Assembly (NCBI GenBank): GCA_016190005.1
Contig: JACPRK010000098.1
Location: 1-64,000 of the forward strand
Reading direction: 5' to 3'
Source: Candidatus Wallbacteria bacterium
Lineage (GTDB): Bacteria > Muiribacteriota > UBA6191 > JACPRK01
Length of the DNA: 64,000 nt
Position 1 is the stretch's first letter, and each line of letters starts with the position of its first letter. Below, in pieces: positions 14,007-42,023 of this stretch. Both the position numbers and the translations under genes were made by a program. The notes below the pieces were generated by a model. It was not told the DNA's origin. It worked only from the letters and a program-made list of their open reading frames with translations, and searched no databases.

Positions 14007-15020
14007 TCAGGCGGCCGCGGGCATCTCGTCGCCGCTGGAGGCGGGCAGGCTGATGTGGAACGTGGTGCCGGCCCCGGGCTTGGAGTCGACCCGAATCTCG
14101 CCGTGGTGGCGTTCGACGATCTGCTTCACGACGGACAGGCCCAGGCCGGTGCCTTCGGGGCGCGTGGTGTAGAAGGGGTCCCAGATGCGGTCGAGGTTTT
14201 CGGCCGGGATGCCGGGGCCGCTATCGCTGATGGAGAGAGCCACGGCGTGCGGCCCGGAGGCCGGCGCGGTCCGGGCGACGATCCGTCCGCCCGATCCGAG
14301 CGCGTGCGAGGCGTTCAGGAACAGCTCGAGCACCGCCTGATAAATCTGGTCCTCGTCGACCGTGGTGCTGGGGAGCCCCGGGTGGAGATGGCAGACGAGC
14401 TCGATGCCGCGCTTGCGGAGCTCGCCGCCGACGAAATCGGCCGAGCGAGCCAGGATGCCGTTGAGGTCGGCTGCGCGGAAGACCGGCTCCTTGGCGCGAG
14501 CGAAGCGCAATAGCGACGTGATCAGCCCGTTTAGCCGATCGATCTCCTCGGTGATGAAGACGCAGGCCTTGTGGTTCGGATCGTCTTCGGCGAAGCTCTC
14601 GCGCACCAGCGCGGCCGAGGAGCGGATGATGCCGAGGGGGTTGCGGATCTCGTGAGCCATGCTGGCCGAGAGCTCGCCGAGTGCCGCTAGCTTGGCGCTT
14701 CGCAGGAGCTGGTTCTGGCTTTCCACGAGCTTCTCGTACTGGTCGGCGATGATCTCGGCAGCTTCGCGGGCCAGCTGCCGGCGCTCGAAGAACATCGCCA
14801 GCAGATATCCGATTGCCGTCCACGTCACCATCACCCAGGCGAAGACCACCGCGGGCACCTCGTGACCGTTCCACAGGTGGCGGAAGCCGAGCCATCGAGC
14901 CGTGAGGAAGTCGACGGCGCCCGCGGAGGCTCCGAGGACGATGCCCCAGGTGCAGTACTGGATGCCGAAAGCGCACTTCTTGCCTTTTTCCATGGTGCGC
15001 CCGGGGTGAGCAAGTTCCAT
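14007..15020 (-). CDS. Membrane sensor histidine kinase, partner of the NtrC-type regulator
   Basis: About 337 residues from ATG 15020. Two membrane segments near the N-terminus enclose only a short loop, so little periplasmic sensing domain exists. Then comes an H-box (LSASMAHEIRNPLG, His about 123) and an HATPase domain with N-box NASHAL, G1 DSGPGIP, F-box WDPFYTT and G2 GTGLGLS. Stops 28 bp before the regulator start, indicating an operon. The start is uncertain: ATG 15020 overlaps a sigma-54-like element; ATG 14993 would follow a transcript from it, and a longer reading to 15155 is open but unconvincing. Confidence 0.9.
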   Translation of the reverse strand: MELAHPGRTMEKGKKCAFGIQYCTWGIVLGASAGAVDFLTARWLGFRHLWNGHEVPAVVFAWVMVTWTAIGYLLAMFFERRQLAREAAEIIADQYEKLVESQNQLLRSAKLAALGELSASMAHEIRNPLGIIRSSAALVRESFAEDDPNHKACVFITEEIDRLNGLITSLLRFARAKEPVFRAADLNGILARSADFVGGELRKRGIELVCHLHPGLPSTTVDEDQIYQAVLELFLNASHALGSGGRIVARTAPASGPHAVALSISDSGPGIPAENLDRIWDPFYTTRPEGTGLGLSVVKQIVERHHGEIRVDSKPGAGTTFHISLPASSGDEMPAAA

Positions 15021-15024
15021 GCCG
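15010..15024 (-). promoter_or_regulatory. Weak sigma-54-like element at the kinase start
   Basis: Minus strand CGGCATGGAACTTGC: GG and GC doublets 10 nt apart, with two departures from TGGCAC-N5-TTGC. If used, transcription begins near 14998 and translation at ATG 14993. It lies about 110 bp downstream of the dyad at 15134-15151. Confidence 0.3.
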
Positions 15025-15133
15025 CCAGTTCTTTCGCCCGCCGCCGTCCGCGCGCTCGTGCAGGCTGGAAGCGGGGTCTCGAACTCTTCGAGCTCGCCAA
15101 GCCTCCGACGCCTCAGCTTATCACGACCACTGC

Positions 15134-15151
15134 CGTTGCAGCCGTGCAACG
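15134..15151. promoter_or_regulatory. Perfect 7-bp inverted repeat, candidate operator or UAS
   Basis: CGTTGCA-GCCG-TGCAACG lies in the divergent region between the kinase and the SLH-like gene. Its core GTTGCAGCCGTGCA recurs exactly at 12409-12422. This suggests one regulator binds both ends of the two-component locus. Confidence 0.45.
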
Positions 15152-15206
15152 TCACTGTCGGGACCTTTGGCCGACCTCCGGGGCGAGCTGGCCGATAAGA
15201 GTCTCG

Positions 15207-15950
15207 ATGCGAAGCGCTTTCGTGCTCCTGCTGATCGCCTTGCTCGGGTCGTCAGTGGTCGAGGCCGGCTCGGGGCTCCTGGCGAAGCTGCGACCGCGAT
15301 ACTACGACCGGCGAATCGAGCACCGCCTGGGCCCGCGAAAGGTGCCGGTGCGCTCGGAGTTCATGGCCCCTTACTCGGATGATGCCCTCGGCTTCCTGAA
15401 GACGCGGGGGCTCCTCGACGGCTACCAGGGACCGGCGTTGGAAGACGACGAGGTGCTCGACCGGCGGTCGGCTGCGTTTCTGATTGGGAAGCTGGCGGCC
15501 TTCGTCGAGGCGCGCTGTGGGCGGGTGTTCCCCGAGGAGCTGGAGTACGTGACTCACGTCGTGGTGGAGCCCAACATGTGGGGTCACCGGCAGGTCGACC
15601 TGGCGCTTTCGACCGGTCTGATGCGGCCCTACTCCGTTCGCGACTGGTGGAACCGGCCGCTCAGCCGGTTCGAGCTGGCATCGATCGCGGCGCGAGCGAT
15701 CGACGGTCTGGCGACCCGATTGCGGATTTTCCGGTACTTCGACGGCGAGCCGAGCGCTCACTACCGCGACCTGCACGCGCTCCCCAGCCTGGCCTACGGC
15801 GATCTGGCGCGAGCGCTGAAGACGGGCGTGGTGGAAGGGGTCTCGGAAGAGCGGTTCGGCGGCAAGGACGCGATCCGGGGGCGGGAGATGGTCCGGACAC
15901 TGCGCCGGCTGGCCGTGATCGCCCTGGCCTACGATCCGCTGGGGGTCTGA
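15207..15950 (+). CDS. Exported protein with SLH-like repeats
   Basis: 247 residues; ATG 15207 begins a signal peptide (MRSAFVLLLIALLGSSVVEAG). Three segments resemble S-layer-homology units, with an aromatic-acidic opening, a G-rich turn and a closing R-x-E/R-x-E-like helix: about 53-100 (DDALGFLKTRGLLDGYQG), about 130-175, and about 190-245 (YGDLARALKTGVVEGVSEER). The match is by pattern only. SLH domains usually bind envelope polymers, so an envelope-anchored role is inferred. Divergent from the kinase gene; its last 22 bp overlap the convergent PAS gene. Confidence 0.7.
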   Translation: MRSAFVLLLIALLGSSVVEAGSGLLAKLRPRYYDRRIEHRLGPRKVPVRSEFMAPYSDDALGFLKTRGLLDGYQGPALEDDEVLDRRSAAFLIGKLAAFVEARCGRVFPEELEYVTHVVVEPNMWGHRQVDLALSTGLMRPYSVRDWWNRPLSRFELASIAARAIDGLATRLRIFRYFDGEPSAHYRDLHALPSLAYGDLARALKTGVVEGVSEERFGGKDAIRGREMVRTLRRLAVIALAYDPLGV

Positions 15951-25529: not shown

Positions 25530-25886
25530 TTACTTCGCGGGGGGGGCGGAAGGCTCCGCGTTGTCAGGGGCCTTGGGGGCCGACTTGCTCAGCTCCGCCT
25601 GAATCTTCTCGAGCGACGCTTCCATGCGAAGCCGGGCGGAGTGGTCTTCCTTGCGCTGATGGTCGAGCAGGTTCACCAGCTGGGAAAAGCGCGCATCCAG
25701 GGACTGAAGGCGCGTCTCGAGAGTCTGGACCTGGCCCTGCAGGTTGGCGATGCTGTTCTCGATGAGCGCCAGGCGGCGCTCGGCGTCCGTGACCCGCCAG
25801 TTGAGCTGGCCGACGTCCTGGGCGAGAGCCGCCGCCGCTGCGAAAGGAAGGGCGACAAGCAGGGCGAGCAGGTTCCGGGGTCTCAT
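25530..25886 (-). CDS. Small exported coiled-coil protein
   Basis: 118 residues: signal peptide (MRPRNLLALLVALPFAAAAA, cleavage after ALA), then a continuous heptad-rich helix (ERRLALIENSIANLQGQVQT, LETRLQSLDARFSQLVNLLD) and a Pro/Ala tail. AAGGAGAG lies 5 nt before the start. It resembles the coiled-coil part of YbgF/CpoB-type proteins but lacks the TPR half. Divergent from the secretin gene; it may stabilise that system, though only position suggests this. Confidence 0.78.
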   Translation of the reverse strand: MRPRNLLALLVALPFAAAAALAQDVGQLNWRVTDAERRLALIENSIANLQGQVQTLETRLQSLDARFSQLVNLLDHQRKEDHSARLRMEASLEKIQAELSKSAPKAPDNAEPSAPPAK

Positions 25887-26023
25887 TGCGCTCTCCTTTT
25901 CTGGAGCAGATCGCGCCTTCCGAGGCGGGCCGGGCCGGTCGTGGCAAAGCCGGGTTCAGCCTGGAGTTGCGAGTTGCCGATGAGGGAGTGAGGGGGGGAA
26001 GGCCTTGCCGGGAGAAACATAGC

Positions 26024-27859
26024 ATGTCGCTCATTCACGCGCTAGCCGCGCTCTTGCTGGTCACGACGGTCGCCTCGGCCGAGAATGCGGCACCCGAGCC
26101 GCTCGACAAGCCTGGGTCCGTGTCTATCACGATCAAGGGCGCTCCGGTTCAGAGTGTCATCGAGAGCATCGTGATGAACGGCAACTACGACTTCGTGACG
26201 TCAGGCGAGTTCGCCGACACGGTGAACCTATCGCTCTCTGGCGTGTCGATCCAGGACGCGCTCGATACCCTTACCCAGATCACCGGCCTCGAGTACCGCG
26301 TGGAAGGCCGCATCATCACGCTCTACGGGAAGAACGCGCCGTCGGAGTACACGCGCGTCTATAAGCTCGGCGTAGCCAGCGCCCAGCAGATCTCGGGCGA
26401 GCTGACGGCGCTGGTCGCCGGCGCCGCTGCCGCCGGTGGCGCCCCGGCCGCGGCAGCAGGACCCTCGCCCCTGGCGGCGCTGGCGGCTTCCGGGGCCGGC
26501 GGTGCGGCCGCAGGTGTCGGCGGGGCACCGGGCGGCGGCGGCGTGATCGTGGACCGCGCACACAACCAGCTCATCATCACGACACGCCCCAGTGTCCACC
26601 GCAAGATCGAGAAGGTGCTCCAGACCCTCGACGTGGCGCAGAAGGGCGAGTTGACCAAGTTTCGCGTCTATGAGCTGAAGTACATCACTGCCAGCCTCCT
26701 GAAGAACGCCATCAAGTTTCAGTTGCCGGGATTCAACGACAACCAGTTCCTGGAGCTGTCGGGCCAGGGCGTCGTCGTCCAGAGCCCGGTCGGCGGGGGA
26801 ACCCCGGGCCTCCCGGGAGCGGCCGCTGGCGCCGCCGCGGCCGCCCCTGCCCCAGCCGCCGCGGGGGCCGCCTCCCAGCTTGGCGTCAGCGCCGAACAGG
26901 TGGGCACGAGCAATACCCGCCGAGTCCTCGTCACGGAGACCGAGGACAACCTCAACTTCATCGCCAAGCTGCTCAATGAGCTGGATCGGCCGCTGAAGCA
27001 GATCTACGCGGAGATCACGCTGATGAAGGTGAGCCGCAACGAGCGCGATCAGTTCGGCGCTGGCTTGCGAGGTGTCGTCAACCAGTCCGGCCGCCAGACT
27101 CCACTCACGGAGTTCTTCAGCAACCTGGGCAGCGGTGCCGCCAACTTCCAGCTCAGGTTCGGCACCATCGGGCCGGAGCAGTTCAGCGTGCTCTTCGACT
27201 ACCTGAAGTCCCGCCAGCGCGGCGAGGTCATCGCCAGTCCGCGCATGCTCGTCCAGGAAGGCCAAGAAGCCAAGATCAACATCACGCAGCAGTTCCCGGT
27301 CCTCGAGACCGAGGTCGCCCAGGGCGTGCCGGTCACGAAGGTGAAGTTCACCGACGTCGGCACCATCCTGCGCTTCACGCCCAGCGTCTTTGCGGACGGT
27401 ACCATCCGGCTCTCCATCAACCCCGAGATCAGCAACGTCCTGAGGACCGTCGCCGTCGGCCAGAGCGGCGAGGTGCCCGTCAAGGACACCAACATCATCA
27501 GCACCGTGCTGAACGTCCGCAATGGCTACACAGCCATCATCGGCGGCCTGAAAGCCCAGAACATGAGCAAGAACTTCGACGCGCAGCCCTTCCTGGGCCG
27601 GCTGCCTATCGTAGGCCGGCTCTTCCACCGCCACTCCGATTCCAACGAAGTCAACGACCTCATCTTCTCGCTGACGCCGAAGATCGTCGAGCAGAACGAC
27701 TACATGCTCAATTCCGGCAAGCCCGACGAATCGGCGGCCAGCCTCAAGCATCGCTTCGTCGAGTCCGGCAAGATTGGCACCGTGGTGTTCGAGGACCGCG
27801 TCCTGAACCACTTCTACGGCAAGGACTCCTCGATCGGCACCGGCAGGGGACGGCTCTGA
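26024..27859 (+). CDS. Outer-membrane secretin (PilQ/GspD family)
   Basis: Forms the outer-membrane pore for pilus extension or type II secretion. 611 residues from ATG 26024 (GGGAGA upstream, signal peptide to ASA). An STN-like domain (about 28-95) precedes two N-domains, each followed or interrupted by Ala/Gly/Pro-rich inserts (about 135-180 and 255-290). The secretin core has EVIASPRMLVQEGQEAKINI, the VPV..V.FTDVGTILRFTP strand and the terminal RLPIVGRLFHRHSDSN...DLIFSLTPKIV. No pilot-dependent S-domain is evident. The long low-complexity inserts are unusual. The partner PilMNOP genes are 7-10 kb away. Confidence 0.93.
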   Translation: MSLIHALAALLLVTTVASAENAAPEPLDKPGSVSITIKGAPVQSVIESIVMNGNYDFVTSGEFADTVNLSLSGVSIQDALDTLTQITGLEYRVEGRIITLYGKNAPSEYTRVYKLGVASAQQISGELTALVAGAAAAGGAPAAAAGPSPLAALAASGAGGAAAGVGGAPGGGGVIVDRAHNQLIITTRPSVHRKIEKVLQTLDVAQKGELTKFRVYELKYITASLLKNAIKFQLPGFNDNQFLELSGQGVVVQSPVGGGTPGLPGAAAGAAAAAPAPAAAGAASQLGVSAEQVGTSNTRRVLVTETEDNLNFIAKLLNELDRPLKQIYAEITLMKVSRNERDQFGAGLRGVVNQSGRQTPLTEFFSNLGSGAANFQLRFGTIGPEQFSVLFDYLKSRQRGEVIASPRMLVQEGQEAKINITQQFPVLETEVAQGVPVTKVKFTDVGTILRFTPSVFADGTIRLSINPEISNVLRTVAVGQSGEVPVKDTNIISTVLNVRNGYTAIIGGLKAQNMSKNFDAQPFLGRLPIVGRLFHRHSDSNEVNDLIFSLTPKIVEQNDYMLNSGKPDESAASLKHRFVESGKIGTVVFEDRVLNHFYGKDSSIGTGRGRL

Positions 27860-29268: not shown

Positions 29269-29330
29269 GGGAAATTGGGGACACACGACTCATTTTCCGG
29301 ACGGAGACGATTCGTGTGGCCCCGATTCCC
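29269..29330. repeat. Imperfect REP-like hairpin
   Basis: The left arm GGGAAATTGGGG followed by ACACACGACTCATTTTCC pairs imperfectly with the right arm ending GTGTGGCCCCGATTCCC. The core CACACGACTCATTTTC is identical to that in 18967-19023. It abuts the stop of the Ig-like gene and may double as a terminator. Confidence 0.65.
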
Positions 29331-32300
29331 TACTGACCGGTGGCGACGAAGTCCCTCTTGAAGAAGGACATCGCCTGCCTGCAAGAGTCGGCGCCGCTGA
29401 AGCCGACCACCGTGAGCGAGAACGATCCGCCCTTCTTGAGGCGGAAGTCCGAGTCGCCGTCGGCGTTCCCGAGGCGCTTCAGGGCGAGGGTGAAGGTGCC
29501 GGGCGAGGACTCTGTCGTGTTGGTGCCGTCGATGGCGATGGCGAAATCCGACGCGAATTTGAATGTGGGATCCGCGCCGTCCTTGGCGATGCCTGTGACG
29601 ATGAAGTTGTTCGTCAGCGTGCTAGCACCGACGTCATTGGTGTCTACGACGTCCCCATCGAACTGCACCGTGATGAGCCTGGTATCCGTCGCCACTGGGC
29701 TGGTGTCGACCGATGTAAAGGTAATGGCCGGCGGCGAGGGCGGCGCGCCCAGCGTGAAACTGGTCTGCGCCGGCTTGATCGGGTTTCCCGATCTGTCCGA
29801 AATGCGGTTGGAGAGCTCGATCAGATAGAGCCGGTTGACGGGGGTGAGCCTGTCGGGTTCCGTGGGACTGAACCTGAGACGATACGAGTTTGCGGGGACC
29901 GTCAACGCTTCGACGAAACTGAGCGTCAGTGGACTCGGATTGCTGGCCAAAGAAGTCAGATCGCACCCAGTCGCGACGAAGTAGTTGTCCTTGTTGATGA
30001 CCGACGTGAGGTCCGAGCTCGAATCGTCCGACATTGGCTCGGAGAAGCTGAAGATGATGTTCGTGAGTGGATTGATGATGACCGAATTGTTGGGAGGATT
30101 CGTTGCAGTCAACTCAGGCTGCGTGCGGTCCCCTGGGCCTGTGCCAGGCTGGTCCGCCGTCTGGAACTGGACGGCGACCCGGGTGACCTTGAGGCTGTTC
30201 CCGGCCGTATCCTGGATGCGGGTCGAAGGGATGAAAGAATAAGCTGTGTTGCCCCTCAAAGTGGCCCCAGGGCTCAGAAGCACCGAGTTGGGAGGAAACG
30301 GAAGCAGTGTGGCGGTCGCGATCCCCGGGTTGTCCAGAGATGAAAACAGCTCATAATTACCCGGGTGCAACGCCGAGGTGAGGGCCCTCGTGCTGGTCAC
30401 GGAGGTCGGATTGTCGGGATCGAAGACCGCCGTATTGAAGTTCACCAGCTTCGAGAAGGTCACCGTGATTTGAGCGTCCTTCAAGACTGCTTGGGAAAGG
30501 TGGGCCGGGTTGGTCTCCTTGACCTCCGGCGGCGTCGTATCCCGGCTCGTGCCGACAACCTTCGCTGTCTTGAACCTGATGGCGGTCGGCTCCAGGGCAT
30601 TGCCGGCAATGTCCTTGATGGCGCTCGAGAGCACCAGGATGTAGTCCGTGTCCCCGAAGAGGCCGCCCGGCGTCACGATCAGGCTGTTGGGTGGCGATTC
30701 GGTGGGCTCAGCGTCCGTCGAGGGCGGGAAGCTGCCTGTCGGCGAGGTGAGCGTGAAGTTCGCCCGACTCACAGCTGTGGACGTCAGGGGTTCGCTGAAC
30801 GTGAGCAGGATTTTCGTGTCGGGATCGACGTCCACGGCACCGTCCGACGGGTTGGAGGTCCGGAGGACCGGGCTGACGACATCCCGGCCACCACCCGGAG
30901 GCGGGGGGTCTATGGTGGTGAAATTCCCGCTCTTGGGAACGAGGGGGTTCCCCACCTTGTCGGTCAGGCCGCTGCCGACGAAGAGCGTGTACTTCGTGCC
31001 GGGAAGCAGCTTGGTGGTCTTGCCCCGATCGGTGAAGCCGGCCTCGACCTTCATGATCGACTTGTTACCGGCGAAGCCGGAGGCGGTGACCACCGGGTAC
31101 GGTCCCCCGGACGTGGTGATGAGCACGTTCCTGAGAGAGCCTGTCACCGGCGAGGGCTCCCGCACGCCGAAAGTGCGGTCGTCCATGAGCTCCGTGAAAG
31201 TCACGAAGATGTCCGAGTTGGTCGAGACGGATGTGCCTTCCGAGGGGTTGACACTGACCACGGCGGGGGGGACCCTCTCGCCTGCAAATCCCTGTATAAG
31301 TCGAGTCCTGAAGAAGATGGGTGCAGTCGGAGCCAGAGCGTTTCCGGCAGAATCCGTGATCGTATTGTCCCTGGGAAACACCAGGGCATACGTCGTGTCG
31401 ACGAGCAGGGGAGGCTCGGTCGGCGAGTTCGCCTTGGGTGTGAGCGAGACGAAGTTCTTGAAGACCGTCGGCCGCTCGAACTCCACATTGGTCGCCGAGC
31501 CTTCGGCTCTCAGCTGGTAGTTCGCCGTGATCTCTGCAGCCGTTGGCGTCACGCCCGGAGAAGTCGGCGACATGTTCTCACTGAACACCAGGACGATGTT
31601 GGTGAAGGGATCGATATCCGTGGCACCCCGAGGCGGCGTTGAACCGACCAGCACGGGCGGGGTCTTGTCGGCCCCGGCGACCCCGGTGACGTTGGCGGTC
31701 TGGAAGGTCAGGGTAAACGGCTTCAGCGCATTGCCCTGGGGATCGGTGATCCCGCCTGACATGATCAAGGCGTACTTCGTGTCCGACAGCAGTGGCGTGG
31801 TCGTCGGCGAGATCTCGAGCGTGGTGGGCGTGATCGCCAGGACGTCGAACCGGATGGGTGTCGCAGACCCGTCTGCCGTGAGCCGGAAGTTGGCCGTGTT
31901 CAGCGAAGCGTCGAGCGTCGCCTTGCTGACGGCCTCCGTGAACGTGAGGAAGATGGCGCTGTCGACGCCAACGGTAGAGTTCCGTGTCGGGAAGACGCTA
32001 CCCTCGACGACCTCGGGTTGGCGCGTGTCTCCTGGCTCACCGGGGATGTCCAGCGTCGTGAAGGTGATCGGTCCTGTGGTTTGCAGCGCGTTGCCATTTC
32101 CGTCGACGAGTAGACTCGAACTGAGCGAGAGCGAGTACGACGTGTTGACCCGCAATCGCCCGAAGTCGAGAGTCACCAGGTTCCCATCTGCCGTGGCCGT
32201 GAGAGGATTCGTCACTGAACCTGGGGTCAAGGTGTAGTTAGCCTTGGTCTGCGCTGCGGCCACGCCAAGCGGTTCACTGAAGAGCAGCCTGACCTTGGTG

Positions 32301-34162
32301 GAGGGGTCCACGAGGGTAGCGCCTCGCAAGGGTTCGCTGCTCAGAAGAGAAGGCTTGTTCTTGTCCCCGGGCTGCCCAGGAGATACTGCGGCGGTCCGGA
32401 AGCCGATGACGGTGTTCGCGAGCGAGTTGGACCGCTTGTCCTTGAGTGAGCTGCCCAACCTCAGCACGTAGTCGCGCTCACCATCCAGCGGGGGAGTGGC
32501 CGCAGCGAGCTCCACTCTCGAAGGACTCGACGCCGTCAGCCTCAAAGGAACGTCCGTGGTCCCCTGCGTCAAGGAGTAGAAACTGGTGGTCGTCAAGGCC
32601 ACGGGGTCCATGACTTCGCTGAACTGCAGGACCACGGAGGAGTTGACATTGACGTTGCGGTCGCCGTCCTTGGGCGTGGAGAAGTTCGTCAGGAGTTCGG
32701 GAGGCGTCCGGTCTCCTGGCTGTCCCGGGACCTCCTTCGTAGAGAACTGAAAGCTTGCCCCGGGGAAGGCCAGGCCCGCTCGATCCCGGAAGTTCGAAAC
32801 CGCAACCGAGTAGGTGACGCCGCCCTCGAGGGCGGGGGTGGCCGTGAAGATGCGTTCGTCTGCCGATGGCGTGATGGGTCCTGCCGCCGGCGCCGAGTTG
32901 TTGTCGCCGGAGATGGTCACTGGGGTGCCAGTGAAGGTGACGGGCTCGGAAAACGTCAGCACGATAGGAGTGAGCCTATCGACCTGAGTCTCTCCGGGTG
33001 TCGGGTTGGTGCTGAGCGTTGGCACGGTCAGGTCCGCGTCGGGGACTCCCTGCAGGTCGGCCGTCGAGATCCGGAGATCGAGTCCGGCCAACCGATTCCC
33101 CGCGATGTCCGCCACCGGCCGGGGCTCTTTCCCCTCGGTGATGGAGAGAGTCCAGGTCGAGTTTCCCACCATCGGCTTGCTGGGTTGCAGCTGCACGGTG
33201 TTGGGAGTGATGAACCGGATGGAGGAGGGTGAGATATCGCGGCTGATACCCGAAAGTGACGTCAGCACGTAGTTCTTCGGAAAGGTCGTGCCCGGGCCCA
33301 TGGGTTCACTGAAGACGAGCGTGAACGAAGTTCTCGGATCGACCTGGGAGGTCTTGGAGCTCGGAACCGAGGACTCTAGCTTTGGCGGCTCCGTGTCGCG
33401 AACGATGATCTGGTTCTTCTCGGGGTTGGACGCGGGGTTGCTGCGTAGGTTTCCGATCGCCACGACGACAGGGCCGCTCTGGACCCCGGCGGGAAGCAGG
33501 ACCACGATCTTCTCGTTGCTCCAAACGGGCGCGGTGCCGGCCGAGATCAACGTGCCGTTGGCTCTGGTGAACAGCACGGAAGAGGAGGCCTGGGCGTCGC
33601 CGAAATTGGCGCCGGTGATGGTCACCGGCTGGCCCTGGACAGCTCCAACAGGCGAGATGGTGTCGATCGTCGGGACGGAGGCGGGCAAAATGTCGATCGA
33701 ACTGATGTTGGACTCGACTCCGCCGGCGGCCCGGCCTCCCCTCAACTGGACCTGAACGCCGATGGACTGGGCTTCCGTCAGGCTGGAGAGCAGGAGAACC
33801 CGGATGGAATCGCTGGTCCAATCCGTGGGCGCCGCGACAGTTCCCGCACTCAGCTTGGTGCGTCCGGAGTTCAGAAGGAAGAGGACCTCACTCGAGTCGA
33901 ACTGAACGACGCCGAAGTTCCTTCCCTTGATCCTGATGAACTGGTTGGCCGAGAGGGGTCTGCCGGCCACCTCGCCGGCCACGCTGTCGATGACCGGAAT
34001 CGCCGTGGCCACGGCCAGGGCTTGAGTGGCATCGGCGCGCCTGGGCTGCGTCGGACTGTTTTCCCAGCTCTCTCCACATCCGCTTGCCGCCAGCGCGAGG
34101 ACCAGCCAGAAAGCCCAGAGGACTGACTGTCCCACGACGTTCCTGCTACTGACCTCGCGCAT
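29330..34162 (-). CDS. Giant lipoprotein with TIG and repeated SbsA-type Ig-like domains
   Basis: 1610 residues. AAGGAGG precedes ATG 34162; lipobox LAASGC gives lipidation at Cys 29. Two IPT/TIG-like units (about 55-240) precede some ten Ig-like units of 110-130 residues. Each opens like PPVLVGSTPPRGATDIDP, followed by (V/L)xFSExM and later NYxLxxxG, the SbsA/Big_5 pattern, and most end in (T)xVPGxPGD-like linkers before DxxPP. A non-canonical last unit holds the only other Cys residues. Predicted long stalk at the cell surface or in the periplasm. It is 50 bp downstream of the PilP-like gene and may be co-transcribed with it. Confidence 0.9.
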   Translation of the reverse strand: MREVSSRNVVGQSVLWAFWLVLALAASGCGESWENSPTQPRRADATQALAVATAIPVIDSVAGEVAGRPLSANQFIRIKGRNFGVVQFDSSEVLFLLNSGRTKLSAGTVAAPTDWTSDSIRVLLLSSLTEAQSIGVQVQLRGGRAAGGVESNISSIDILPASVPTIDTISPVGAVQGQPVTITGANFGDAQASSSVLFTRANGTLISAGTAPVWSNEKIVVLLPAGVQSGPVVVAIGNLRSNPASNPEKNQIIVRDTEPPKLESSVPSSKTSQVDPRTSFTLVFSEPMGPGTTFPKNYVLTSLSGISRDISPSSIRFITPNTVQLQPSKPMVGNSTWTLSITEGKEPRPVADIAGNRLAGLDLRISTADLQGVPDADLTVPTLSTNPTPGETQVDRLTPIVLTFSEPVTFTGTPVTISGDNNSAPAAGPITPSADERIFTATPALEGGVTYSVAVSNFRDRAGLAFPGASFQFSTKEVPGQPGDRTPPELLTNFSTPKDGDRNVNVNSSVVLQFSEVMDPVALTTTSFYSLTQGTTDVPLRLTASSPSRVELAAATPPLDGERDYVLRLGSSLKDKRSNSLANTVIGFRTAAVSPGQPGDKNKPSLLSSEPLRGATLVDPSTKVRLLFSEPLGVAAAQTKANYTLTPGSVTNPLTATADGNLVTLDFGRLRVNTSYSLSLSSSLLVDGNGNALQTTGPITFTTLDIPGEPGDTRQPEVVEGSVFPTRNSTVGVDSAIFLTFTEAVSKATLDASLNTANFRLTADGSATPIRFDVLAITPTTLEISPTTTPLLSDTKYALIMSGGITDPQGNALKPFTLTFQTANVTGVAGADKTPPVLVGSTPPRGATDIDPFTNIVLVFSENMSPTSPGVTPTAAEITANYQLRAEGSATNVEFERPTVFKNFVSLTPKANSPTEPPLLVDTTYALVFPRDNTITDSAGNALAPTAPIFFRTRLIQGFAGERVPPAVVSVNPSEGTSVSTNSDIFVTFTELMDDRTFGVREPSPVTGSLRNVLITTSGGPYPVVTASGFAGNKSIMKVEAGFTDRGKTTKLLPGTKYTLFVGSGLTDKVGNPLVPKSGNFTTIDPPPPGGGRDVVSPVLRTSNPSDGAVDVDPDTKILLTFSEPLTSTAVSRANFTLTSPTGSFPPSTDAEPTESPPNSLIVTPGGLFGDTDYILVLSSAIKDIAGNALEPTAIRFKTAKVVGTSRDTTPPEVKETNPAHLSQAVLKDAQITVTFSKLVNFNTAVFDPDNPTSVTSTRALTSALHPGNYELFSSLDNPGIATATLLPFPPNSVLLSPGATLRGNTAYSFIPSTRIQDTAGNSLKVTRVAVQFQTADQPGTGPGDRTQPELTATNPPNNSVIINPLTNIIFSFSEPMSDDSSSDLTSVINKDNYFVATGCDLTSLASNPSPLTLSFVEALTVPANSYRLRFSPTEPDRLTPVNRLYLIELSNRISDRSGNPIKPAQTSFTLGAPPSPPAITFTSVDTSPVATDTRLITVQFDGDVVDTNDVGASTLTNNFIVTGIAKDGADPTFKFASDFAIAIDGTNTTESSPGTFTLALKRLGNADGDSDFRLKKGGSFSLTVVGFSGADSCRQAMSFFKRDFVATGQ

Positions 34163-34838: not shown

Positions 34839-35540
34839 TCAGGGTCCCGAGGGGTTTACCAGGCCGTCGCTGGCGTCCAGCGCGCTCACGATCAGGGTCG
34901 CATTCACGGCGCTGCCGGAGGCGCCTTTCTGCCAGACATCCAGCATAGTCAAATCCAAGAAGTAGCTCTGGTCGGCCAGCCTCTCCAGAAACCCCAGGAA
35001 GGCGCCGAATTCGCCGGCGGCGGAGTACTTGAATCGAACCTGGTCCACACCCAGGTAGTTCCAGACTTTGTTCTTCCCCTCCGGCAGGCTGGGCTTGTCA
35101 TTGGGGTCGGTAATGTCGTTGGCGCGGGCGGCAAGATCCTCCTCCTGCACCAGCTTCGACTGGTAGAGGAAGTGCTCCGGATCGAGCGGGTCCCGCGGAT
35201 TCAACGTCAGACCGGCCGCGGCGGCCGAGACTTGCTCAGAGATGCTGAAGGTGTCGTAGTACTTGGCGTTGCGTTCGCCCTGACGGCCCTTCGGGTTCAC
35301 GAACCGGCCCAGCAGCGCCTTCAGCTCGGCCTCGATGGCCTTCTGGCTGGCGGCGGCTTCCTCGAGTTCCTTCTTGGCTCGCTCGTAGGCATCCCTCTTC
35401 TCCTTGAGCTCCGCGACGTCCTTGGCCAGTCGCATCCGCTTGGCCTTCTCGGGCCCGGCCATCCCGACGTGACCGAACCAGCCCAACCCGATCACCACCG
35501 CCATGTAGACTGCCAGGGCCTTTTTCTGATTCTCGTCCAT
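34839..35540 (-). CDS. pilO: PilO-like pilus alignment protein
   Basis: 233 residues: one N-terminal membrane segment (ALAVYMAVVIGLGWFGHVGM), a coiled coil (AELKEKRDAYERAKKELEEA), and a ferredoxin-like C-terminal domain with VRFKYSAAGEFGAFLGFLER, the typical PilO stretch. PilO pairs with PilN in the inner membrane. Starts 12 bp after the PilM-PilN fusion, so the two are co-transcribed. Topology and position make the call firm although sequence conservation is weak. Confidence 0.82.
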   Translation of the reverse strand: MDENQKKALAVYMAVVIGLGWFGHVGMAGPEKAKRMRLAKDVAELKEKRDAYERAKKELEEAAASQKAIEAELKALLGRFVNPKGRQGERNAKYYDTFSISEQVSAAAAGLTLNPRDPLDPEHFLYQSKLVQEEDLAARANDITDPNDKPSLPEGKNKVWNYLGVDQVRFKYSAAGEFGAFLGFLERLADQSYFLDLTMLDVWQKGASGSAVNATLIVSALDASDGLVNPSGP

Positions 35541-35552
35541 GATCTGGGCTGC

Positions 35553-37379
35553 TCAATCCCCCTTCAGCGTTCCGCTCAACTGGAAGTAGAACTGACAGTC
35601 GGGAGTCTTGTCGAGCGTCTCCGCCGCGTAAGGGTTGGCGCCCGTCGAGGTCTCGATCAGTTGCGGCTGTTCCAGATCGGAGAAGTGTCCGGCCTCCGTG
35701 AGCTTTCGAGAAAAGCTGAACACCTGGTCGCGACCCCTGGCCTCCCCGCTCAGCTTGAAAGTCAGGCGCATCTTCTCCTGTTTGCCGGCCATCGAGCCGT
35801 CCGCGGCCCGCGTCCCGGCGAAGCGTGGATACGTGGTGAACACCTGGAACCGGTTGATCTTCACCAGGCCTTGCGAGGCGGCACCCATCTCCTTGAACAG
35901 GGCGCCCCAGGCCGGCTTGCCTCCTGCGACCTCGCGCAAGAGCTCCAGCTTTGCCTTCGTCCCTGCTTCTTGGAGGCGCGCCTCGGCGTACTTGGTGAAC
36001 CAAGTCTTCGCCTCGGCCAAGGCATTCTGGGCCGCTACTTTCTCCTTGAGCAGCTTGCCACGTGCCGACCACGCCTCGTAGTACTCGTAGCCGACGGCCA
36101 GCATGACCACGACCAGCACGATGTGCGCCCACTGCGGGATGCTTTCCGCGAGGTTCGCGCCAGCGCCCGTGGCGGCCCCTGCAGATTGGGTTCCCTCGAG
36201 CTGCAGCCCGATGTTGAAGCTGTCGGCCTCGTCCGTCAGGGCAGCCAACCCGCCGCCGATTGCCGCCGCGAAGTGCAAGGAGGACGGGGCTGCCTCGGGC
36301 TTGGCGCCGCCCAGCGCCTCGAGTGGGTCCAGTACCTGGACCGATTGAGACAGCTGCTCGGCAGCGCGAACGAAGAAGCCGTCGGTCGAGACCAGTCCGC
36401 CCGTCAAGAAGATGTGCTCGGCGCCCTTGCGAACGGCCATGACGGTCGCCATGGAGGTGTTGAAGTCTGTGGCGCTGACCGTCGAGAAGTAGTCGAGCGA
36501 CAGCCGGATCTTCGTGCACAGCTCTTCGCAGACGTTGTCCGTCGTCTCCTCGTAGGCCGCCGGATTGGTGATCGGCAGACCCAGCGAGGCGATTCGGTCG
36601 GCGTCGCCGGTCACGCCAACCTTGGCCATGAAGTCGGAGAACTGCGGAAAGGTGAGCTGGAAGAAGTTCCTTTCGGCCGACAGGTTGCGCAGCTCGTTGA
36701 AGAAGTCGCGCGCGCCCATGTGGAGCGCCTTGTGGAAGACGACCTTGCCTTCCTTGAAGGCGACCATGTTGGCGGAGTTGTAGCCCAGGTCGACTACGCA
36801 GGAGATGGTCGACATCACGTCGGGGCGGCCCGAGAAAGCGGTGCGGAAAAGCTCCTGGTAAGCGAAGAGCTTGGGGAAGGCCCCTCCGAACGGAATCTTG
36901 CGTGAGACGCAGATCTCCTGGAGCTCCTTGAGGATGTCGTACTTGACGCAGGTGTGCGCGGCGACCACTTGGAACTGCGCGCCCTGGGGCTTCTCGCGCA
37001 GACGGAAGCTCTTCTTCAGCGTCACCTCGAGCGCGCTGGTGCCCTCGGCTGCGACGAACTTGTTGAGCGAATCTTCCAGGGCGATATCGATCCCGGCCGG
37101 CTCCTGGTTGTTCAGGTAGGCGATGCTGATCGGCATCAGCCACTCGGCCACGATGTAGTAGAGCGGGACCTTCCTGTCGATGGCGCCCGCGTTCACCAGG
37201 CCGTCGATGGCCGTGCGCACGTCGTTCAAGTAGCGCGTCGGCTCGGAGAAGCTGTCCTTCAGCGTCACCGCATTAAGCCGCTCGGCTACCGGATTTCCAC
37301 TCTTGGTGGAGACCGTGACCGCCTTGATGAGGTGGCTGCCGAGGTCGACGACCTGGACTTCCTGGAGTTTTTTTGCCAT
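35553..37379 (-). CDS. PilM-PilN fusion protein of the type IV pilus platform
   Basis: 608 residues from ATG 37379. Residues 1 to about 395 are an FtsA/actin-like PilM: VQVVDLGSHLIKAVTV as phosphate-1 loop, SCVVDLGYNSANMVAFKEGK as phosphate-2, and HIFLTGGLVSTDGF as the adenosine motif. A Gly/Ala linker leads to a membrane segment (about 413-432, AHIVLVVVMLAVGYEYYEAW), a coiled coil and a PilN-like domain to the end. In most bacteria PilM is a separate cytoplasmic protein that binds the short N-terminal tail of PilN; here the two are covalently joined, which fits that contact. First gene of the minus-strand run to PilO. Confidence 0.87.
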   Translation of the reverse strand: MAKKLQEVQVVDLGSHLIKAVTVSTKSGNPVAERLNAVTLKDSFSEPTRYLNDVRTAIDGLVNAGAIDRKVPLYYIVAEWLMPISIAYLNNQEPAGIDIALEDSLNKFVAAEGTSALEVTLKKSFRLREKPQGAQFQVVAAHTCVKYDILKELQEICVSRKIPFGGAFPKLFAYQELFRTAFSGRPDVMSTISCVVDLGYNSANMVAFKEGKVVFHKALHMGARDFFNELRNLSAERNFFQLTFPQFSDFMAKVGVTGDADRIASLGLPITNPAAYEETTDNVCEELCTKIRLSLDYFSTVSATDFNTSMATVMAVRKGAEHIFLTGGLVSTDGFFVRAAEQLSQSVQVLDPLEALGGAKPEAAPSSLHFAAAIGGGLAALTDEADSFNIGLQLEGTQSAGAATGAGANLAESIPQWAHIVLVVVMLAVGYEYYEAWSARGKLLKEKVAAQNALAEAKTWFTKYAEARLQEAGTKAKLELLREVAGGKPAWGALFKEMGAASQGLVKINRFQVFTTYPRFAGTRAADGSMAGKQEKMRLTFKLSGEARGRDQVFSFSRKLTEAGHFSDLEQPQLIETSTGANPYAAETLDKTPDCQFYFQLSGTLKGD

Positions 37380-39469: not shown

Positions 39470-40156
39470 ATGAAAGCTGCCATTCACGTCTTCGCCACCT
39501 TTCTTGTGCTGTCATTCGGTCTTCTCTGGCAGGCCGGTTGCAACCTAGATTCGGGGCTGCAAGATCCGCTGCGTCCACGGGCCGATCTGCAAGTCACCAG
39601 CTTCAGCCCCGCCCAGATAACCCGGCGGCGCGTGATCACGGGCGGAGTCGAAACGCTTCGAAGCGCTGATGGGCTCTCGATTCAGACTCGCCCCATCACG
39701 CTCGACATCTTCCCACAGCCAAATGTAACCGTCCGCATCAACAACGGCGTGTCGGCGCTCATCACCGGATACTCGGTGACCTACAACCTGCAGGCTCCTG
39801 GTAACCCTCCGTCGGGGTTGCCCCTCTTCGGCGGCGCTCTGAACGTCTTCGTCGATGCGGCCCCCGTCAACTCCAACGAGGGTTTGAGTCTCGGCAACGG
39901 GCCCTCGGGCGCCACGGAAAACCCGCTTCCTGGTGCACCCGAGCAGGTCGCGGGCTTTGGCAATGGCCTGACGACGTTCACCGCCGCCGTCATCTCTCCG
40001 GAAGCCAGGACATTCCTAGTACTCAACTCCAGCATCCTCGTCGCCAACATCACGTTTTTCGTCCAGGACATCAACGGCAACAACTTCACGGTGCCGGCTG
40101 CCGTCGCACTGTCGGGCGTCGTGGTCGTGTCCGGCGAAAACGTCCAGGGCAGTTGA
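39470..40156 (+). CDS. Lipoprotein of unknown function
   Basis: 228 residues. Signal peptide with lipobox WQAGC (Cys 24). The mature part is beta-rich, Asn/Pro/Gly-rich, without Cys or known motifs; there is a Ser/Thr-rich strand pattern (VTVRINNGVSALITGYSVTY and FVQDINGNNFTVPAAVALSG). It looks like an Ig-like or pilin-like sandwich on the outer membrane. Located between the methyltransferase and PilB. I do not recognise the family. Confidence 0.75.
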   Translation: MKAAIHVFATFLVLSFGLLWQAGCNLDSGLQDPLRPRADLQVTSFSPAQITRRRVITGGVETLRSADGLSIQTRPITLDIFPQPNVTVRINNGVSALITGYSVTYNLQAPGNPPSGLPLFGGALNVFVDAAPVNSNEGLSLGNGPSGATENPLPGAPEQVAGFGNGLTTFTAAVISPEARTFLVLNSSILVANITFFVQDINGNNFTVPAAVALSGVVVVSGENVQGS

Positions 40157-40328: not shown

Positions 40329-42023
40329 ATGATCCGACGCGAGAGGGTTGGCGACATCCTCATCAGGGCCGGGAAAATCACCGAGGAGCAGCTCAACCGT
40401 GCCCTCGAGGAGCAGCCCAAGACCCACAAACGGGTCGGTGACGTTCTCGTCGACCTGGGCTTCATCAAAGAGGAGGAGCTGGCCGACACGCTGGCGTTGC
40501 AGCTCAAGATCCCCCGCGTGCACCTGGCGGATTCGACGCCGGTCCGCGAGGCGGTCGACATGCTGCCGTTCGAGTTCTTGATGAAGAACCAGGTCTGTCC
40601 GGTCAAGGTGACCGACGGGCGGCTGGAGCTTGCGGTCTGCGACCCGCTCAACATCTTCCTGGTCGACGACATCGAGCACAAGACCGGTCTGAAGGTGAAG
40701 ACCTTCATCGAGACTCCCTCGGCCATCAAGAAGGCGCTGGAAGAGGCCCACCCGAAGGACGCCAAGATGATGGAGCGGGTGGCGCTCGATCTGGCGGGGC
40801 AGGAGGCCTCGGGCGGGGACGACGACACCGGAAAGGCAATCGACCTCGACAAGATCGAGGGGCCGATCGTGGCGCTGGCTCACCAGATCATCGAGAAGGG
40901 AATCAGCGAGAAGGCCAGCGACATCCATGTCGAACCGTCCGTGCAATCGCTGCGCGTGCGGTTCCGGATCGACGGAGTGCTCCAGGAAATCATCAAGATC
41001 CCGCCCAGCATCATGAAGTTCCAGGGCGAGCTGATCAGCCGCCTGAAGCTGATGGCGAACATGGATATCTCGGAGAAGCGGCTTCCACAGGACGGCCGCA
41101 TCAGGGTGACCGCGGGCGAGCGGGTGGTCGACCTGCGCGTGAACTCACTGCCGGTGGCCAGAGGCGAGAAGATCTGTATCCGCATCCTGGGGTCCAGCGG
41201 CGGAGCAAAGACGCTCGCCGACCTGGGGTTCTCGAAGCTGAGCTTCAAGATCTTCGAGGACCTCATTCGGCATCCGAACGGGCTGATCCTGGTGACGGGC
41301 CCCACGGGAAGCGGCAAGACGTCAACCCTCTACGCAGCGCTCGATACGGTCTACAACCCGGGATTGAACATCTGCACGGTCGAAGACCCGATCGAGTACA
41401 ACATCCCGTACTTCAACCAGACGCAGATCAACAGCGCCATCGGAATGACGTTCGGGACGGTGCTGCGCGCGCTGTTGCGCCAGGACCCCAACGTGATCCT
41501 GATCGGTGAGATCCGTGATACGGAGACCGCGAAGATCGCTGTCGAGTCGGCGCTTACCGGCCACCTGGTCTTCTCGACGCTTCACACGAACAGTGCCGCT
41601 GCGACCGTTGCGCGTCTCACGGAGCTGGAGGTAGAGCCGTACATGGTGGCGAGCGTGCTGCTGGGCGTGGTGGCCCAGCGGCTCTGTCGCAGGCTCTGCA
41701 TGAAGTGCAAGCGTGAGGCCCCGGCGTCCACTGAGCTGATCGAGTTCCTGGAAAAGCATGGCAAGAAGGTCGAGAACCCGAAGATGTGGATCCCGGTCGG
41801 CTGCAAGTATTGCAAGGAGTCCGGGTACTCGGGCCGGCAGGCCATCCACGAGATCTTGATCAACTCGCCGACGCTGCGAGAGGACGTGCTGTCGCATGCG
41901 GATAGCGAGTCGATCGCCGAGCATGCGAAGCAGCGCGGCTTCGTGACGCTGGTTGAGGATGGCTATCTGAAGGTGCTGCAAGGCATCACGAGCGTCGAAG
42001 AAGTGCGGCGCGTCGCGAGGTAG
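40329..42023 (+). CDS. pilB: PilB/GspE-type assembly ATPase
   Basis: Cytoplasmic motor that powers pilus extension or T2SS. 564 residues, normal. An MshEN-like N-domain (about 1-150, RVGDILIRAGKITEEQL) with a possible second half; then the ATPase with Walker A GPTGSGKT (324-331), the Asp box, Walker B VILIGEIRD and His box HLVFSTLHTNSAAAT. A tetracysteine zinc site is visible (CRRLCMKCK and later CKYCKESGYSGR). It stands alone between a lipoprotein and glycan genes; the PilC platform protein and PilT are not in the window. Confidence 0.94.
   Translation: MIRRERVGDILIRAGKITEEQLNRALEEQPKTHKRVGDVLVDLGFIKEEELADTLALQLKIPRVHLADSTPVREAVDMLPFEFLMKNQVCPVKVTDGRLELAVCDPLNIFLVDDIEHKTGLKVKTFIETPSAIKKALEEAHPKDAKMMERVALDLAGQEASGGDDDTGKAIDLDKIEGPIVALAHQIIEKGISEKASDIHVEPSVQSLRVRFRIDGVLQEIIKIPPSIMKFQGELISRLKLMANMDISEKRLPQDGRIRVTAGERVVDLRVNSLPVARGEKICIRILGSSGGAKTLADLGFSKLSFKIFEDLIRHPNGLILVTGPTGSGKTSTLYAALDTVYNPGLNICTVEDPIEYNIPYFNQTQINSAIGMTFGTVLRALLRQDPNVILIGEIRDTETAKIAVESALTGHLVFSTLHTNSAAATVARLTELEVEPYMVASVLLGVVAQRLCRRLCMKCKREAPASTELIEFLEKHGKKVENPKMWIPVGCKYCKESGYSGRQAIHEILINSPTLREDVLSHADSESIAEHAKQRGFVTLVEDGYLKVLQGITSVEEVRRVAR

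Follow-up and report, generated by a model that had tools for sequence, protein, structure and literature searches.

The actin-like protein PilM and its membrane partner PilN have been described both as separate proteins and as single chains. Where they are separate, as in Thermus (2ych/4bhq), Pseudomonas (5eou) and Myxococcus (3jc8), the two chains are joined by a peptide alone: the first eight residues of PilN bind a channel in PilM, and PilF is stimulated by PilMN, with no effect of PilM alone (PMC6325625). In type II secretion, GspL/PulL has been described as a fusion of PilM and PilN (PMC10191384), and the PilMN pair has been called a GspL orthologue (PMC4471445). PilM and PilN have also been reported to be fused in the type IV pilus system of C. 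difficile (PMC6916266, citing Melville and Craig 2013), and it has been suggested that the contact motif is different in monoderms (PMC6916266). Since these fusions are in the literature, a covalent PilM-PilN arrangement is already known in both type II secretion and type IV pili. A first-pass annotation of the DNA described here had implied that a covalent form is exceptional; the published cases, together with a GspL encoded by the same genome, do not support this.

Here, we describe a PilM-PilN fusion encoded in a 64,000-nucleotide stretch of a Candidatus Wallbacteria genome (the window; Table 1). Like GspL/PulL, the protein carries a cytoplasmic actin-like domain, one membrane helix and a periplasmic ferredoxin-like domain in one chain, and like the C. 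difficile protein, with which we compare it by description only, it joins PilM to PilN in a type IV pilus system, although C. difficile is a monoderm. With the separate PilM and PilN proteins it shares both folds, the ATP-site residues and the INLL docking motif, but not their division into two chains. We consider it very probable that the gene encodes a natural fusion, a subunit that couples the cytoplasm to the periplasm in one of the several type IV filament machines of a diderm bacterium. What the present case adds is the wide occurrence of the fusion in a diderm phylum, where it coexists with split copies and GspL, and the retention of the docking asparagine.

Table 1. Features of the fusion locus in the window.
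Feature	Position	Strand	Basis
Fused PilM-PilN protein, 608 aa	35553..37379	-	ORF, homologues, PDB profile matches, Foldseek
PilM-like actin-fold domain, residues about 1-385; D12/G14/K19, G199, G327-G328 conserved	36225..37379	-	AF2 model, PDB matches, conservation, hhalign 96% to split PilM
Linker motif D-S-F-N389-I-G-L, probable equivalent of the INLL(P) peptide at the PilN N-terminus	36204..36224	-	Conservation; alignment to 5eou_A
Membrane segment, about residues 417-436	36072..36131	-	Hydropathy; helix 417-485 in AF2 model
PilN-like periplasmic ferredoxin-like domain, about residues 486-608	35556..35924	-	hhalign 84% to split PilN; profile matches to 4bhq and 3jc8 PilN; strand order in model
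Probable PilO, 233 aa, starting 12 nt downstream of the fusion	34839..35540	-	Position; 212-213 aa gene after fusions of class relatives; Pfam PilO after L009 fusion; direct profile similarity weak
Possible PilP/GspB-like periplasmic protein, 151 aa	34213..34668	-	T2SSB E=0.014 (weak) and position
Putative lipoprotein, 1610 aa, Big_5 Ig-like repeats and TIG domain, after the PilP-like gene	29330..34162	-	Domain matches; role in system inferred
Secretin (PilQ-like), probably of the same system	25886..27859	+	PF00263 2.6e-38; best match is G007 secretin beside lipoprotein, PilB and PilC
Putative lipoprotein, small, with NGVS..I..YSV.Y motif; immediately precedes PilB	39470..40156	+	L085, L074 and L121 have similar lipoproteins next to secretin/PilB genes
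PilB/GspE-type assembly ATPase with MshEN domain, 3 kb from the fusion	40329..42023	+	PF00437 1.1e-125, PF05157 6.5e-18

The first-pass annotation had read a single 608-residue frame with a linker and one membrane segment, and this description holds: the frame runs intact from ATG to stop, and hydropathy reveals a single membrane segment at about residues 411-436, within a long predicted helix. Its coordinates were also right, but it left the strand unstated; the gene lies on the minus strand, and a stop codon interrupts the plus-strand reading of the same interval.

The identity of the protein as PilM plus PilN is firm, with PilM structures ranking first for the AF2 model and the family profile separately matching both parts. 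Searches of Pfam, NCBIfam and the PDB with the window protein alone gave a weak match to PilM and none to PilN; its match to PF11104 (PilM_2; E=1e-4, 21.8 bits) falls below the curated cut-off of 27, while 20 of 24 fused relatives match this model at E<=0.001. A profile built from the 24 fused proteins (A2) matches solved PilM structures at values of 1.6e-48 (3jc8) to 1e-30. An alignment of the fused proteins of the window's class (the focus class) scores 96% in hhalign against the phylum's split PilM over residues 9-393, and 98.9% against the other fused family from end to end (residues 6-589), with secretin, ATPase and phosphofructokinase controls at <=0.6%. The AF2 model calculated from the 24-sequence A2 alignment (pLDDT 75.4, pTM 0.60; a first AlphaFold run on a 7-row alignment reached pLDDT 51 and was set aside) comprises an actin-like domain, a long helix spanning residues 417-485, and a C-terminal domain of order alpha-beta-beta-alpha-beta-beta. 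In a Foldseek search of the PDB with this model, the ten best matches are all PilM, including 2ych (PilM-PilN) and 5eou (PilM:PilN1-12), with TM-scores up to 0.75 by target. The ATP-site residues D12, G14 and K19 (DxGSxxxK), G199 (the second glycine motif) and G327 and G328 (GG) are conserved in the aligned family, and K19 would be the equivalent of Lys26 of Thermus PilM, which is required for ATP binding (PMC6325625).

The C-terminal half was assigned to PilN through relatives and profiles rather than through the window protein alone. A coiled coil separates the membrane segment from the PilN-type domain, and the focus-class alignment scores 84% in hhalign against the phylum's split PilN (residues 418-584). 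A part of the A2 profile distinct from that matching PilM finds solved PilN structures (3jc8_Na, 9.7e-10; 4bhq, 1.2e-8), and a C-terminal profile (A3) ranks PilN on top (4bhq, 2.5e-9; 3jc8, 1.5e-7), with no GspL chain among the PDB matches listed. PF05137 is matched by 10 of 15 C-terminal pieces, that of the window not among them, and in another family of the phylum one fusion (L009) has both PF11104 and PF05137 above cut-off, followed by PF04350 PilO. The first-pass annotation had made its fusion reading depend on a PilN-like C-terminal half, and by the hhalign and A2/A3 profile matches this half does behave as PilN. The case also helps annotation, because the window protein escapes standard models.

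Between the last helix of PilM and the membrane segment, the fused proteins carry a hydrophobic-Asn-hydrophobic motif, about 28 residues ahead of the latter. The column of N389 holds asparagine in 23 of 24 fused proteins other than GspL and aspartate in the remaining one, a conservation equal to that of the ATP-site residues. A HMMER alignment to 5eou_A, a crystal chain carrying PilM and PilN residues 1-12 as one chain, sets this asparagine on that of the PilN peptide ARINLL. The window's form of the motif, FNIGL, is degenerate, while one fused member (L093) retains RINLL, and split PilN proteins of the phylum mostly begin with MIxINLL or MIxINLI. Because a near-invariant asparagine thus lies in a motif that matches the PilN docking peptide, the usual PilM-PilN contact is probably kept in cis by the linker. 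The retention of a near-invariant docking asparagine in the linker of fused proteins is new here. The first-pass annotation had set a covalent joining against non-covalent docking of the peptide; with the docking motif still in the linker, this contrast is probably mistaken and the two kinds of joining probably coexist. Its companion statement, that a covalent form would fix stoichiometry and provide a tether to the membrane, holds by construction, with a ratio of 1:1.

One way to explain the locus without a fusion is that a sequencing or assembly error joined two genes, a concern voiced in the first-pass annotation and lent some weight by the source, a metagenome-assembled genome that is 72.7% complete. 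The presence of the fused frame in other genomes refutes this. Six genomes of the class share the frame, as does most of the phylum; in four further class members, fused frames span 631-632 residues at 20-23% identity to the window protein, and in each case the next gene is the size of PilO (212-213 residues). The gene is present once in the window genome, and its nearest public relative, on contig JACQZN010000025.1 (labelled Candidatus Wallbacteria), is 95% identical with no indels. These two copies differ at 132 codons but just 29 residues (dN 0.023, dS 0.30, dN/dS about 0.08 overall), and dN is much lower than dS in all four parts of the protein (PilM, linker, membrane segment plus coil, and PilN), which indicates purifying selection over the junction. 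Codon-position GC is continuous across the junction, with third-position GC staying high in one frame. The linker shows no convincing internal start, offering just TTG at codons 368 and 378; GTG codons lie inside the membrane segment, and neither these nor the TTGs have an obvious ribosome site. The fusion is a natural frame rather than a frameshift, and we put the chance of an artefact at next to nil. We judge it very improbable, too, that the natural fusion has left the filament machinery to become a membrane-tethered actin-like protein with another function, in the manner of FtsA or MreB. The sequence is very divergent, and FtsA and MreB follow directly after PilM among the structural matches; against this, PilM outranks FtsA in all comparisons, the protein has a PilN domain, its gene lies close to secretin, PilB and PilO-like genes, and in a class relative the best matches of that secretin and PilB sit in one cluster.

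A further reading, that the protein is a divergent GspL of a type II secretion system, deserves more weight but is still unlikely. The domain order is the same (PMC10191384), and the window genome does contain a type II secretion system. That system, however, has its own GspL, a separate 516-residue PilM_2 plus PilN protein on another contig (C112), followed by a PF04612 T2SSM gene and with GspF and GspK homologues near, whereas the fusion locus lacks gspC-K, including the pseudopilin genes gspG-K, and gspM, and instead has PilO-like, PilP-like, secretin and PilB neighbors. The C-terminal domain also lies nearer to PilN than to GspL by profile. In a tree of PilM domains, the focus group and the groups fB, fA and f6 are each recovered at 100/100, while GspL (92/81) falls with split PilM groups on one side (92/96), apart from the focus group; fused and split forms are separated by at least two changes. 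A clade of the focus group plus GspL is borderline rejected (p-AU 0.044), a clade of the focus group plus fB is compatible with the data (p-AU 0.40), and one clade of all fused proteins including GspL, which would favor the GspL reading, is not rejected (p-AU 0.125). Too divergent to anchor the comparison, the GspL and HofM sequences of E. coli K-12 were left out, and the second tree also omits the very long branches L105, L064, L092, L095, L107 and L033 and five near-duplicates. Tree placement and p-AU tests thus favor, without proving, an origin of the window fusion separate from that of GspL, in an unrooted tree that does not distinguish fusion from fission.

The natural fusion is widespread. 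All 40 genomes examined from the phylum have PilM_2 matches, and the survey of fused and split forms proposed in the first-pass annotation finds an unbroken fused frame other than GspL in 32 of them (frames of >=539 residues matching A2 at E <1e-90), beside split copies in many; one genome (G027) encodes two split PilM genes together with both fA and fB fusions. Full-length fused homologues extend across the class at about 22% identity. Unbroken fused frames also occur in other phyla (for example, 651 residues in G055, 670 in G133 and 533 in G114), an unsorted set some of which may be GspL. In the phylum's split operons, pilM and pilN are spaced by -1 to +9 nt in 28 of 29 cases and share a frame in about 12 of 29, such that loss of one stop codon would yield a fusion; we propose that the fusion probably arose in this way, by loss of the pilM stop codon in a tightly packed pilM-pilN operon. 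Genomes that have a natural single-chain PilM-PilN with its docking peptide, and also split pairs and GspL, make it possible to compare the arrangements directly and to ask whether pilus assembly requires the pair to separate. Should fused forms function while the peptide is docked in cis, assembly cannot depend on PilM leaving the platform. Separately, we note that canonical PilM (E about 1e-60), present in nearly all other genomes of the phylum, was not found in the three genomes of the window's genus (G000, G001 and G002), where genome incompleteness may explain its absence.

Of the components expected of a type IVa pilus machine (assembly ATPase, secretin, PilM, PilN and PilO, and the platform protein PilC), the window holds PilB, a secretin and PilM-PilN plus a probable PilO. 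Neither a pilin nor a PilC gene was recognized in its cluster; PilC adjoins the corresponding genes in G007, a class relative, and in fB loci. The cluster in G007 comprises, in order, the best match of the window secretin (5e-86), a lipoprotein, the best match of the window ATPase outside the genus (3e-162) and PilC, and thus shares the lipoprotein-ATPase order of the window; the nearest relatives of the window ATPase outside the genus are G007 ATPases, and the fused gene of G007 lies apart from this cluster. The fB loci, found in other families, encode ATPase, PilC, fused PilM-PilN, PilO, a PilP-like protein, a secretin in two frames and a lipoprotein that shares the NGVS..I..YSV.Y motif with that of the window. 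Given the shared cluster order and lipoprotein motif, the focus system is probably the form that the fB system takes in this class. In a tree of assembly ATPases, the window protein joins class relatives alone and not the fB-locus ATPases, so it is the fused protein, the secretin and the lipoprotein that link the two systems. The 151-residue product downstream of PilO gave a negative hhalign result against PilP-like proteins of other loci. One genome of the window's genus (G000, 73% complete) has 33 matches to the type II/IV secretion ATPase model PF00437; with many type IV filament ATPases per genome, the focus system would be one machine among several. In the same genome, two frames (C56 and C12) have three PF00437 matches each, and PilB, PilT-like and PilC genes stand together on contig C63.

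We propose that the window fusion would work like GspL of type II secretion and the fused PilM/PilN of C. difficile. The linker motif may dock in the PilM-domain cleft of the same chain, or of a neighboring chain in a ring. The PilM domain would bind ATP and would recruit and stimulate the PilB ATPase encoded nearby; the single helix would then relay motion to the periplasmic domain, which would pair with PilO, and PilP would provide the link to the secretin. We also raise a broader possibility, one that we hold to be somewhat doubtful: that the phylum at large has diderm type IV filament machines with a covalent PilM-PilN independent of GspL, a docking peptide held in cis and an unusual outer-membrane part, made up of a two-protein secretin in one branch, the small NGVS-motif lipoprotein and giant Ig-like lipoproteins.

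Several observations concern the secretins and the lipoproteins. The 1610-residue putative lipoprotein directly after the PilP-like gene has about ten Big_5 Ig-like repeats, and two fB clusters (L085 and L074) are likewise followed by large proteins that are secreted or lipid-anchored. NGVS-motif lipoproteins of other loci (L085:15362-16189, L074:14629-15240 and L121:9735-10484) show that this family accompanies secretin or PilB genes across the phylum. Finally, at least four genomes encode the fB secretin in two neighboring genes, one for an STN/Secretin_N protein and the other for a short secretin-barrel protein (L085:12553-14379 and 14376-15365 on the plus strand; L074:11040-14629; L078:4856-8764; L084:5820-8281), and the barrel-part gene of L085 has an apparent signal peptide of its own.
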